Virus record (IMG/VR): IMGVR_UViG_3300010883_000289
Location: 1-29,018 of that record
Origin: a virus
Reading direction: 5' to 3' (one strand)
Length of the DNA stretch: 29,018 bases
In this document: in pieces, positions 3,242 through 29,003 of the stretch
Position numbering within the stretch: position 1 is the first letter of the stretch
Layout: the number at the start of each line of letters is the position of its first letter
The notes under the pieces: generated by a model
What the model was told of the DNA's origin: nothing
Database searches by the model: none
What the model saw: only the letters and a program-made list of their open reading frames with translations
Position numbers and translations under genes: made by a program

Positions 3242-3260
3242 TAAGTGTATAACTATAAGA
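3242..3260 (+). repeat. 19-bp dispersed word, copy before terL
   Basis: TAAGTGTATAACTATAAGA, about 38 bases before the TerL start. The identity with the copy at 11297 extends to 26 bases (3241-3266). It contains -10-like TATAAC/TATAAG, so it may be a promoter, operator or both. Confidence 0.75.
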
Positions 3261-24449: not shown

Positions 24450-24881
24450 ATGGGAAAATCAGGACATTTTATACACCGTGTGGTCAAAGAAGGATTAACT
24501 ATTAATGCAAACACAACTTACGACATTGCCAATAAAGTTGAGATTAATCTCAATGATGTTAGGGATGGTAGTAGTCAACAAGCAATTAAGAGAGCATCCA
24601 AATACACCGGTAACATTCAACTTATTCGTATTAAGTGTACAACGAATGCAGGAACACCAACTGCCATTACACTCAAAGGTTATGAAGATTCAGCGGGAAG
24701 CAAACTTATACTGCCCGCATCCTCCTCAGTATTGGAGCCAAGCCTTGATGGCAATAGTCATGCAGTTTCTTTTTTATGTAATGTATACCATGCTAGTGGT
24801 AACGATGAGCTCTATCTCTTTCTTAAAACAAATTCAGGAAGTGTTATTGTTAACGAGGTGCAGGTCACTTGGTTTGAATGA
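24450..24881 (+). CDS. Small beta-rich virion protein, 143 aa
   Basis: Preceded by GTAGGAGAAGACG, part of an exact 18-base repeat of the start region of the fibre gene at 14402. The protein is beta-rich throughout (GNIQLIRIKCTTNAGTPTAITL, DELYLFLKTNSGSVIVNEVQVTWFE) and resembles a small jelly-roll or carbohydrate-binding-like module. It sits with two other appendage-type genes before the lysis-like genes. Not recognised; minor tail or head spike subunit is the simplest reading. A degenerate GAGTAGTTATAG lies 26-36 bases upstream. Confidence 0.6.
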   Translation: MGKSGHFIHRVVKEGLTINANTTYDIANKVEINLNDVRDGSSQQAIKRASKYTGNIQLIRIKCTTNAGTPTAITLKGYEDSAGSKLILPASSSVLEPSLDGNSHAVSFLCNVYHASGNDELYLFLKTNSGSVIVNEVQVTWFE

Positions 24882-24919
24882 TAGCACAACACTGAAGGCT
24901 GAACGAAGTAGGAGAAGAC

Positions 24920-25204
24920 ATGCCAGCAACAATAGAATTTGGAGGACCTTTCCAACCCATTCAAGGGTCGGACCTAAAATCGGTGGACATAAGTTCTCAG
25001 ATAAATGGAATCACCAATCAATTTACAATAGCCGAGGAGTTCATCACACAACAATGTTTTGTATTCCTCAATGGATTATTTCAAGGACCACCAAGTGGTG
25101 CCGAAATAACTATAAACAATTCAACAACATTCACTATCGCCACGCTGCCGCTGTCGGGCGATTCACTCACGGTGGTTTATTCACCGTTTATAAAACAGTC
25201 ATAG
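24920..25204 (+). CDS. Small fibre-tip-like module protein, 94 aa
   Basis: ATG with GTAGGAGAAGAC upstream. Residues 25-90 (SSQINGITNQFTIAEEFI ... CFVFLNGLFQGPPSGAEITINN ... PLSGDSLTVVYS) follow a common fibre module: hydrophobic strand, VF-NG turn, a strand describing the ligand loop, then P-x-x-GD-x-L-x-V-x-Y. The C-terminal 80 residues of the next gene have the same pattern (VFRNGM at 240-245), so this appears to be a stand-alone copy of that domain. Probable appendage or receptor-binding subunit. Confidence 0.6.
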   Translation: MPATIEFGGPFQPIQGSDLKSVDISSQINGITNQFTIAEEFITQQCFVFLNGLFQGPPSGAEITINNSTTFTIATLPLSGDSLTVVYSPFIKQS

Positions 25205-25214
25205 GAGACTAATT

Positions 25215-26753: not shown

Positions 26754-27254
26754 ATGTATGACTGGCAGACCTCATTTGAATGGGGTACACAACAAGAGCA
26801 TCTTGTGCTCAAACAATTGGCTGAACTTAATCCACAATGGAATGTTAAACCAACTGGAGGATTCAATGAACCAGATGGTGAGTTCTTGTATGGAGGCATA
26901 GAGATTAAGTCCTATTCAACTTGGTATTACAAACCACCTATAGAAACTGGAATAGTTGGAGGCAAACTATCATGTTGGGTAACTGATGAAAGAGTAACAC
27001 TACTTATTATCAATCATGATGAATGGCTACACCTGTATAGAGCTGACAAACTAAGAACATGTATAGATGACATTCCTCAGTACCAATGCAATGTATCACA
27101 GGGTAACGGAGATTATAAGAGAATGAACTTTCTTTATGTTTCACCTATGTCAACTAGGCAAGACCATGAGTGTGATACACAGTATGACCCAGAGCGCTGG
27201 AATCTATCAGGCTTAGATGAGTCACCTTACATTTGTTCTATAAAAAAAGTATAA
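26754..27254 (+). CDS. PD-(D/E)XK nuclease-like protein, 166 aa
   Basis: Residues 36-53 (GFNEPDGEFLYGGIEIKS) hold the signature P40-D41 then E50-x-K52, a nine-residue spacing usual for PD-(D/E)XK nucleases; E15 in a first helix (GTQQEHLVLKQLAEL) could complete the site. The rest is small beta strands and an unrecognised C-terminus (QYDPERWNLSGLD). Likely a DNA nuclease acting in replication, recombination or host DNA breakdown. It is the first gene of the right-hand replication-like block. ATG 26754 has GGAGA upstream; a poor promoter may lie near 26690-26715. Confidence 0.6.
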   Translation: MYDWQTSFEWGTQQEHLVLKQLAELNPQWNVKPTGGFNEPDGEFLYGGIEIKSYSTWYYKPPIETGIVGGKLSCWVTDERVTLLIINHDEWLHLYRADKLRTCIDDIPQYQCNVSQGNGDYKRMNFLYVSPMSTRQDHECDTQYDPERWNLSGLDESPYICSIKKV

Positions 27255-27305: not shown

Positions 27306-27455
27306 TGTAGGTTAATAACGATTATGCTAAATTTTTAAGTTATTAATCTATAGCCGAGTTTTGACATCTCGGTTCTCCGTAAATTGAAATTGAGTTTACC
27401 CTAGCATCATAATAAGTTTTCTTCTGCCATTGACAACTTGATGCTAGGGTTTTTC
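27306..27455 (+). ncRNA. Structured non-coding RNA, about 150 nt
   Basis: No coding region, but a promoter with consensus -10 at one end and a terminator at the other. Stems visible: P1 27308-27319 with 27339-27350 (12 bp, one G-U); P2 27352-27358 with 27368-27374 (7 bp, CCGAG core); P3 27379-27383 with 27395-27399; P4 27399-27409 with 27439-27449 (11 bp, CCCTAGCATCA) followed by TTTTT, the terminator. ATGCTA in the P1 loop (27324-27329) can also pair with TAGCAT in the left arm of P4, and P3 and P4 share a base, so alternative folds are possible. It may be a small RNA or an attenuator leader of the gene at 27556. Not a tRNA: no T-loop or acceptor stem. Confidence 0.65.
27399..27454 (+). terminator. 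Terminator of the structured RNA
   Basis: CCCTAGCATCA (27399-27409) pairs with TGATGCTAGGG (27439-27449), then TTTTT. Confidence 0.8.
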
Positions 27456-27490: not shown

Positions 27491-27519
27491 TTATACAAAA
27501 AGCTTTTATGGAGTATAAT
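27491..27519 (+). promoter_or_regulatory. Sigma70-type promoter for the polymerase-like gene
   Basis: TTATAC (27491-27496), 17-base spacer, TATAAT (27514-27519). It lies after the RNA terminator, so the gene at 27556 has its own promoter. Confidence 0.7.
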
Positions 27520-27555: not shown

Positions 27556-28548
27556 ATGAAATCACAATTTATGAAGAGGCTTGGAAGAAAATCCCATGCA
27601 AAAGAAAAACTCTTCAATGTCTATTACGAGTGCTTTGAAAAGTGGATGCGAAGAGGAATCTATAGAGATGAACCTCCCTTTGTGCCATCTAAAGAATTAG
27701 CCAAAGCAAATGTCAGATACTTTAAGTATAAACATCTATTCGTTGCTGCAGATACACCCTACTTTATCAATGAAAAATGCAAGCAAATAACACAATGGAA
27801 TCCACACTTCATTGAATGTGCAATGCATCTATTCAATACAGGCTATCAATGTGCACAAGCACTGCCTTGTATAAGAAGACATGAATGGAAATTAGATAAC
27901 AATGTTTCTCTATCTTATAGTTATACACTTAGACATAAACACTTCTTCGATTGGGTCAAAGGCAAGATAGATAGAGGTGAAACATTCAATGACCATTATG
28001 TCAGAAGACCTCATCGTCTATACACAAGAGGCATGTCAATGCAATACATTCCTTCAGACATGCGCAATCACTTCATGCCTAATCATAATGACTATGACTT
28101 TCAAAATTGTCATTGGTCAATCTTCGCACAAACACAGCATGTTGATAAACAATACAAAGAATGTCTTCAACCCATGATTGATGAACCTGTTAGCTTTATG
28201 AAATACATTGCCAAAGAATCAGGTCGTGATGTCAAATACATGAAAACAAAAAGAAATGCAATAATCTATGGCGATAAAAGAGGCACAGGCTCTAAAACTC
28301 TCAACAACATCAGAAACAAACATCAAGCATGGCTGATAGAGAATCATAAAGAGGCAACAGAGCTATTCTCTGACATTACATCATGGGAAACAAAGGCATT
28401 AGAAGAAAGTATCACAGAATGTAACCCTGACCTACTCATGTATGATGGCTGGATGACCAAAGAATCTATAAACATTCAAGCGGTGCAACAAAGAATAAAA
28501 GATAACATAGGCATTGACCTAACAATCATACAAAAGCGGGCTGCATAA
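27556..28548 (+). CDS. Polymerase-like protein with compact palm motifs A, B and C, 330 aa
   Basis: No named family recognised. Three motifs in the order and style of family-A DNA polymerases / T7-type RNA polymerases are visible: A, DFQNCHWSIFAQ from D181 (compare DYSQIELRIMA); B, K230-x7-Y238-G239 (KTKRNAIIYG; Pol I has K758-x7-Y766-G); C, LLMYDGWM with D297 (Pol I HDE, T7 RNAP HDS). D181 to K230 is 49 residues (53 in Pol I). B to C is much shorter, so the fingers would be reduced. The N-terminal 150 residues are basic and helical, with GRLY-like RLYTRGMSMQYIPSDMR before motif A. If real, this is a miniature polymerase or primase-like replicase. ATG has AGGAGATTATT upstream. The family call is inference. 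Confidence 0.5.
   Translation: MKSQFMKRLGRKSHAKEKLFNVYYECFEKWMRRGIYRDEPPFVPSKELAKANVRYFKYKHLFVAADTPYFINEKCKQITQWNPHFIECAMHLFNTGYQCAQALPCIRRHEWKLDNNVSLSYSYTLRHKHFFDWVKGKIDRGETFNDHYVRRPHRLYTRGMSMQYIPSDMRNHFMPNHNDYDFQNCHWSIFAQTQHVDKQYKECLQPMIDEPVSFMKYIAKESGRDVKYMKTKRNAIIYGDKRGTGSKTLNNIRNKHQAWLIENHKEATELFSDITSWETKALEESITECNPDLLMYDGWMTKESINIQAVQQRIKDNIGIDLTIIQKRAA
27913..27931 (-). repeat. 19-bp dispersed word, reverse copy inside the polymerase-like gene
   Basis: The complement is identical to TAAGTGTATAACTATAAGA; identity with the other copies spans 22 bases (27911-27932). It lies in coding sequence, antisense to the gene. If it is a promoter it would produce antisense RNA against the start of the gene. 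Confidence 0.7.
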
Positions 28549-28643: not shown

Positions 28644-29003
28644 ATGGCTAAGAAGGATAAGAAAAAACAACAGATGGTGACATACAAACCACTTGACCTA
28701 AGTAAATTAAGTGTCAAAGACTTAGAAGAGAATGTATCTATCGATGTAGGCGACAAGGTGCTCATACACTGGCATGATGAAGGCAAACTAGACATAGCAA
28801 CTATCACCCACATAGACTATGACACTGAAGAGATACACACAGACATTGGCTCATGGAATGAACTACAATTATTAAGAACAATGCATGGCAAACTAATACA
28901 AAAAATACAACTTATCGTAGGAGATGAAGATGAAGACAAAGACGAAGTACAGACCGGCAAAGGCCTTACCAAAACAAAAAGTGACAATACCAGTGAGTGT
29001 TAA
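28644..29003 (+). CDS. Acidic-tailed small protein, 119 aa
   Basis: GGAGGTACATA before ATG. Basic N-terminus (MAKKDKKKQQ), a central part with an SH3/Tudor-like barrel look (IDVGDKVLIHWHDEGKLDIATITHIDYDTEEIHTDIGSW, about 33-72) and a very acidic stretch (VGDEDEDKDEVQ). Family not recognised. It follows the polymerase-like gene by about 95 bases and may share its transcript. Its acidic tail coding overlaps the start of the next gene in another frame. A nucleic-acid or protein-binding helper is possible but unproven. Confidence 0.65.
   Translation: MAKKDKKKQQMVTYKPLDLSKLSVKDLEENVSIDVGDKVLIHWHDEGKLDIATITHIDYDTEEIHTDIGSWNELQLLRTMHGKLIQKIQLIVGDEDEDKDEVQTGKGLTKTKSDNTSEC

Follow-up and report, generated by a model that had tools for sequence, protein, structure and literature searches.

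A compact, divergent TV-Pol-like polymerase in the variable region of ~30-kb tailed phages

Introduction

Can a protein of only 330 residues hold an intact active site of the family A polymerase type, and what might a small tailed phage use it for? The question is raised by an open reading frame (ORF) in an IMG/VR virus record of 29,018 bases, the whole stretch of DNA analysed here (hereafter the window), in which no end repeats were detected. The window carries tailed-phage genes encoding the terminase large subunit, the portal, the major head protein, a sigma-region-4 protein and a methyltransferase. A preliminary description had noted palm motifs of the DNA polymerase I (Pol I)/T7 RNA polymerase (RNAP) type in this ORF and proposed a new compact phage replicase. 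We found strong evidence that the ORF encodes a divergent, compact member of the TV-Pol family.

Results and discussion

The polymerase ORF and its homologues

The polymerase gene and the putative signals upstream of it are as follows.

27398..27450, + strand: terminator-like element between the nuclease and polymerase genes, a 12-bp hairpin followed by TTTTT (-22.5 kcal/mol, z -5.8)
27492..27519, + strand: putative sigma-70-like promoter TATACA-16-TATAAT 5' of the polymerase gene, weak and about as frequent in shuffled sequences
27556..28548, + strand: TV-Pol-like polymerase of 330 aa with a catalytic block from R154 to D297, assigned from homology, profiles, alignment and model

The reading frame is open, with the sequence AGGAG located 6 bases upstream of the ATG. 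The hairpin and T5 tract that separate it from the nuclease gene suggest that the polymerase forms a separate transcription unit. No confident family assignment emerged for the ORF from Pfam, PHROGs, NCBIfam or PADLOC, and neither phmmer/hmmsearch against PDB sequences nor tblastn against phage records yielded matches. A match to Tox-ART-HYE1 (E 0.0067) was rejected, as it is below the cut-off of that family and was seen in only one homologue.

A single-sequence scan of IMG/VR with the polymerase found no homologue. Using the terminase as a bridge, we obtained 60 related loci; when 30 of these records were searched, three homologues of about 40% identity to the window polymerase came to light. 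A pattern scan added a fourth (L138, 36% identity); the matches to the MYDGWM and DYDIxNCH patterns were mostly due to chance and were discarded once the ORFs were read. In the phylogenetic tree, the five phage proteins form one clade on a long stem, with a support of 100/100. A search of 148 genomes of one phylum with the A3 profile gave no genome beyond one already known.

Comparison of the block R-x-Y...Q...R...YDxxNCH with published families pointed to the TV-Pols, which were named in 2008 by Iyer, Abhiman and Aravind and include standalone forms and one phage member (PMC2579912). Microcystis phage LMM01 is listed as the carrier (PMC2579912). Its ORF MAP_030 shares the blocks of the window polymerase and is, judged by sequence, a candidate for this TV-Pol, the text of PMC2579912 that we used giving no gene name. 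MAP_030 in turn matched a Polaromonas plasmid protein near a recombinase gene, a context described for TV-Pols (PMC2579912). Further TV-Pol references were collected by scanning genomes for DYDIxNCH.

Conservation of the active-site motifs

Alignment of the five phage proteins with five bacterial TV-Pols located four conserved blocks.

28015..28065, + strand: β-hairpin block R154-x-Y156...Q163...R170, the counterpart of Pol I R668/Q677/R682 by sequence register
28090..28113, + strand: motif A, D179-Y-D181-F-Q-N-C-H186, in which D181 matches Pol I D705 and H186 lies at the position of E710
28243..28272, + strand: motif B (O-helix-like), K230-x7-Y238-G239, from the alignment; residues 226-237 are a helix in the model
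28438..28449, + strand: motif C, M295-Y-D297-G298, replaced by HDG in L138 and most bacterial TV-Pols

The preliminary description had listed D181, K230-x7-Y238-G239 and D297 in this order, with a D-to-K distance of 49 residues against 53 in Pol I. These values are correct, and the pattern exceeds chance: D181, K230, Y238, G239 and D297 are invariant in all four homologues and in the five bacterial TV-Pols, at variance with the free variation of D181, K230 and D297 that was to speak against a polymerase. N184, C185 and H186 are likewise invariant across the five phage proteins. As H186 occupies the position of Pol I E710, which we take to be the ribose gate, the choice of sugar is not readable from the sequence. 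The hairpin block resembles R668-L-S-S...L-Q677-N-I-P-x-R682 of Pol I, and its earlier reading as a conserved RxY...Q-x-P-x-x-R element holds in part: R154, Q163 and R170 are invariant in 10/10 aligned rows, whereas P166 is found in the window sequence only among the five phage proteins. The hairpin around R154 was modelled at low confidence.

Motifs A and B are 49 residues apart in each of the five phage proteins. Four of the five aligned bacterial TV-Pols share this spacing, and the fifth, the Sinomicrobium protein L106, has 44. By contrast, from K230 to the second aspartate (motif B to C) the phage proteins have only 67-68 residues, compared to 94 in L106, 111-112 in the other TV-Pols and 124 in Pol I; in the alignment with the TV-Pols, the phage proteins lack a stretch after the fingers helix.

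Membership of the TV-Pol family

A hidden Markov model of seven TV-Pols retrieved the ORF at an E-value of 2.8e-16 among the ORFs of the related phage loci, with the next non-family match at 0.34; within these loci the profile found members of the polymerase family only. On the window protein itself, the E-value is 2.7e-17 (database size set to 1000). Since references had been collected by a scan for motif A, we masked this motif in a second test, which gave 3.5e-10; masking all of the R154-187 block gave 1.1e-9, and residues 190-330 by themselves 1.3e-10. Among the controls, the best of 20 composition shuffles reached 7.9 and E. coli Pol I 1.3. Profile-profile comparison by hhalign of the phage family against the TV-Pols gave a probability of 99%; against the LMM01 protein alone the match is weak (E 0.012), yet in register. 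The combined profile A7 detected MAP_030 as the sole match in the 162-kb LMM01 genome (E 9.3e-7), and gave no match in T7, CRP-7, immuto_3-5A (MW353176) or MG592441.

TV-Pols are characterized by two metal-binding aspartates on the palm, a β-hairpin with an absolutely conserved arginine before the palm, a fingers helix with a conserved aspartate and an RxxxK motif, and an N-terminal two-helix thumb (PMC2579912). D181 and D297 correspond to the two aspartates and R154 to the conserved arginine. Only the lysine of RxxxK could be placed; the arginine is absent from the phage proteins and not placeable in the aligned TV-Pols. Helices are predicted in the thumb region, but residues 100-165 mostly have pLDDT values below 50, and no homology of the N-terminal 150 residues was identified outside the subfamily. 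Pfam gave no family A or exonuclease match in the 330-residue ORF, which lacks the exonuclease domains and full-length thumb of Pol I. Taken together, residue invariance, profile searches and structural neighbours bear out the earlier reading of a polymerase that belongs to the Pol I/T7 RNAP superfamily, carries the catalytic residues listed above and has no exonuclease domains.

Structure models and fold neighbours

A first model from four sequences had a pLDDT of 65.7, and a second from ten sequences reached a pLDDT of 73.8 and a pTM of 0.60. In the second model, blocks within residues 171-330 average 77-96, whereas residues 100-165 are poor; the N-terminal 150 residues were modelled poorly. 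Structural similarity search of BFVD revealed viral neighbours that include phage proteins (E 1.2e-5), replication proteins of Zamilon and the Qinghai Lake virophage, and giant-virus proteins. Almost every PDB neighbour listed is a DNA polymerase from family A or B, in line with the expected fold, although none has an E-value below 0.001 and the TM-scores to family A are low, at 0.3-0.4. The PDB ranking was rejected as deciding evidence, for family B outranks family A in the second model. The reading as a palm is supported by homology combined with fold matches that are consistent and individually weak.

Comparison with known polymerases

The phage proteins share with the TV-Pol family (PMC2579912) the R/Q/R hairpin block, the YDxxNCH motif A, the K-x7-YG motif B, the DG motif C, the 49-residue spacing seen in most of the aligned members, and the lack of an exonuclease. 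They differ in the shorter segment between motifs B and C (67-68 residues versus 94-112), in an N-terminal domain of their own and in size, at 330 residues compared to the 400-600 first described. In addition, the window has a nuclease gene adjoining the polymerase and lacks the D5 helicase or recombinase that form the usual, not obligatory, context of the family. The closest outside relative by BLASTP (E 2e-12) is L106, a 363-residue TV-Pol from a Sinomicrobium MAG (L144:5516-6607). It is also a standalone protein of comparable size in a phage-like region, with neighbours resembling terminase, portal, PhoH and RNase HI genes (named by eye from their sequences), but differs in its motif B-C spacing of 94 and is only about 21% identical to the window polymerase.

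The CcPol-MP primase of SCCmec (PMC7581432, PMC10061031) likewise has a family A core with two catalytic aspartates and no active exonuclease, and resides in a mobile element. CcPol differs in keeping part of the exonuclease domain and in its partners, an OB-fold SSB and a helicase, none such being shown for the window polymerase. The divPolA1 and divPolA2 proteins of tailed phages (PMC11348598) are also divergent phage PolA forms that lack an active exonuclease and whose thumb is truncated or missing; however, their genomes encode a regular polymerase as well, and the A7 profile found no match in either record.

A proposal of 2008 has Pol I and the T7-type RNA polymerases descend from a minimal core represented by the TV-Pols (PMC2579912), and as of 2020 CcPol was the only protein grouped with them that had been studied biochemically (PMC7581432). 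With its 330 residues, short fingers-to-motif-C segment and active site conserved across divergent phages, the present form offers a test of the minimal polymerase or primase, and it also bears on the initiation of replication in small tailed phages. The earlier proposal of a new compact replicase must be narrowed: the family itself has been known since 2008 and the gene is missing from a complete relative, whereas the divergent, especially short phage clade with its unusual context, namely stand-alone use in ~30-kb tailed phages and a nuclease neighbour, is new.

Genomic context in related phages

Comparison of gene families in 12 records revealed one conserved structural block and one variable region. 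The polymerase gene lies within the variable region in the window, G019, G025, G026 and also G031. The relative G018, of 30,578 bases, is probably complete, since it has a direct terminal repeat of 123 bases, and it has no polymerase gene; no obvious replication enzyme was seen among its accessory ORFs. The gene is also absent from G024 (32 kb), both ends of which lie inside the terminase gene. Since a complete relative does without it, the polymerase is not an obligate replicase and such phages can replicate in its absence; the slot that it occupies in these ~30-kb tailed phages varies in content, and the gene can be seen as an optional module for replication. In the window it is the only candidate for a replication enzyme, as had been proposed: library scans found no helicase, no primase such as DnaG or AEP and no other polymerase, the small structural-block ORFs that were not scanned being too small for a helicase. 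Nor was a D5 helicase, recombinase, transposase, resolvase or annealing protein seen in the window.

Two genes accompany the polymerase.

26754..27254, + strand: putative PD-(D/E)XK-like nuclease of 166 aa with D41 and E50-I-K52, assigned by motif only, near the polymerase in four phages
28644..29003, + strand: small conserved protein of 119 aa that carries an IDVG block, encoded immediately 3' of the polymerase gene both here and in three relatives

The putative nuclease family carries an NHxxWLHxY motif, and D41, E50 and K52 are invariant in the window, G019, G025 and G026; Pfam, PHROG and NCBIfam gave no match for it. In the window its gene precedes the polymerase gene; in the three relatives it lies downstream of the small IDVG protein. 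As the nuclease also occurs in G018, which has no polymerase, the link between the two may reflect a shared position. According to Iyer et al. 2008, TV-Pols are never linked to nucleases (PMC2579912); if the motif-based assignment holds, the present pair is an exception to a statement that concerns the set known then and is not a defining feature of the family. The 119-residue protein, which by eye resembles a small β-barrel, is a possible partner of the polymerase; it was not found in G031, where a different ExK-type gene lies near the polymerase homologue. A RusA-family gene is present in three of the phages.

Proposed role and alternative explanations

We consider it probable that the window ORF encodes a minimal, catalytically intact single-subunit TV-Pol, most likely a DNA primase-polymerase (prim-pol), that serves as an optional replication module. 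Its chemistry is proposed by analogy with Pol I and CcPol on the basis of the active-site conservation, profile homology and fold neighbours described above. On an RRM-type palm, D181 and D297 would coordinate two metal ions; the short fingers helix would bind the incoming nucleotide through K230 and Y238, and R154 and Q163 would contact the template or primer. The polymerase may start or carry out the copying of phage DNA. We infer primer synthesis on single-stranded phage DNA, because TV-Pols, for which a prim-pol role has been predicted, replace prim-pols beside D5 helicases (PMC2579912), and the CcPol-MP complex makes DNA primers in a reaction that requires both predicted metal-binding aspartates of CcPol (PMC7581432). 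Host helicase and Pol III would then extend the primers, a reliance suggested by the lack of phage counterparts in the window, and the neighbouring nuclease might handle branched or replicating DNA. As CcPol primes only together with its partner MP (PMC7581432), the window polymerase may also need a partner, for which the 119-residue neighbour is the candidate. More tentatively, and doubtful at present, this exonuclease-free polymerase of ~330 residues, among the shortest intact family A-type enzymes, could be the sole phage-encoded replication initiator in ~30-kb tailed phages, priming and copying without a phage helicase or conventional primase, possibly with small protein and nuclease partners, and gained and lost as a cassette.

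Instead of a primase or replicase, the protein might be a primer-dependent enzyme that fills gaps during repair or recombination in concert with the nearby nuclease; this alternative is unlikely, though the least unlikely of those considered. The PD-(D/E)XK-like gene near the polymerase in the four phages that carry both, the ExK-type gene in G031, the RusA-family genes and the dispensability of the polymerase in relatives would all suit it; yet the nuclease persists without the polymerase in G018, no recombinase or annealing protein was seen in the window, and the typical association of TV-Pols is with D5 helicases and the replication of small elements (PMC2579912). It is improbable that the protein transcribes phage genes as a compact single-subunit RNA polymerase, in the manner of T7 RNAP. 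Membership of the same superfamily, the YDG/HDG form of motif C and H186 at the E710 position, which differ from DNA polymerases, point that way, but the protein, with 330 residues compared to 883 in T7 RNAP, has no counterpart of the promoter-binding N-terminal domain, the phage sigma-region-4 protein suggests use of the host RNA polymerase, and the characterized CcPol prefers dNTPs (PMC7581432).

The remaining two explanations are more improbable still. Many TV-Pols belong to transposon-like elements, one of them inside phage LMM01 (PMC2579912), so the gene might be cargo that serves an inserted transposon; this is very improbable, given that no transposase or resolvase was seen in the window and that the gene occupies the same slot with the same neighbours in related phages. 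That the protein is a catalytically dead RRM-type accessory factor, comparable to the palm-only proteins beside some SCC-like helicases, is hardly credible: its small size would fit, and such decayed proteins exist (PMC10061031), but the metal- and nucleotide-binding residues are all kept in the five phage proteins despite identities of only 36-40% to the window protein. The prim-pol reading remains the preferred one.

Other features of the window

Two further genes lie at the other end of the window.

1631-2149: DNA methyltransferase, PHROG 799 (E 7.5e-24)
2621-2977: sigma-70 region 4 protein, encoded upstream of the terminase genes and also conserved in the majority of relatives

In G024 and G031, the methyltransferase homologue lies beside a second, MT-A70-type methyltransferase gene. 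A frame at 24505-25212 overlaps the gene at 24450-24881; its conservation is probably the shadow of that gene, so that it is probably not a gene itself. Palindromes near the window start were rejected as iterons, with three sites against 2.0 expected. A perfect 18-nt inverted repeat with a 45-nt spacer (31-48 and 94-111) is found at the contig start, and a perfect 19-nt inverted repeat, TCTTATAGTTATACACTTA (1545-1563 and 3242-3260), flanks the interval from the methyltransferase to the terminase.
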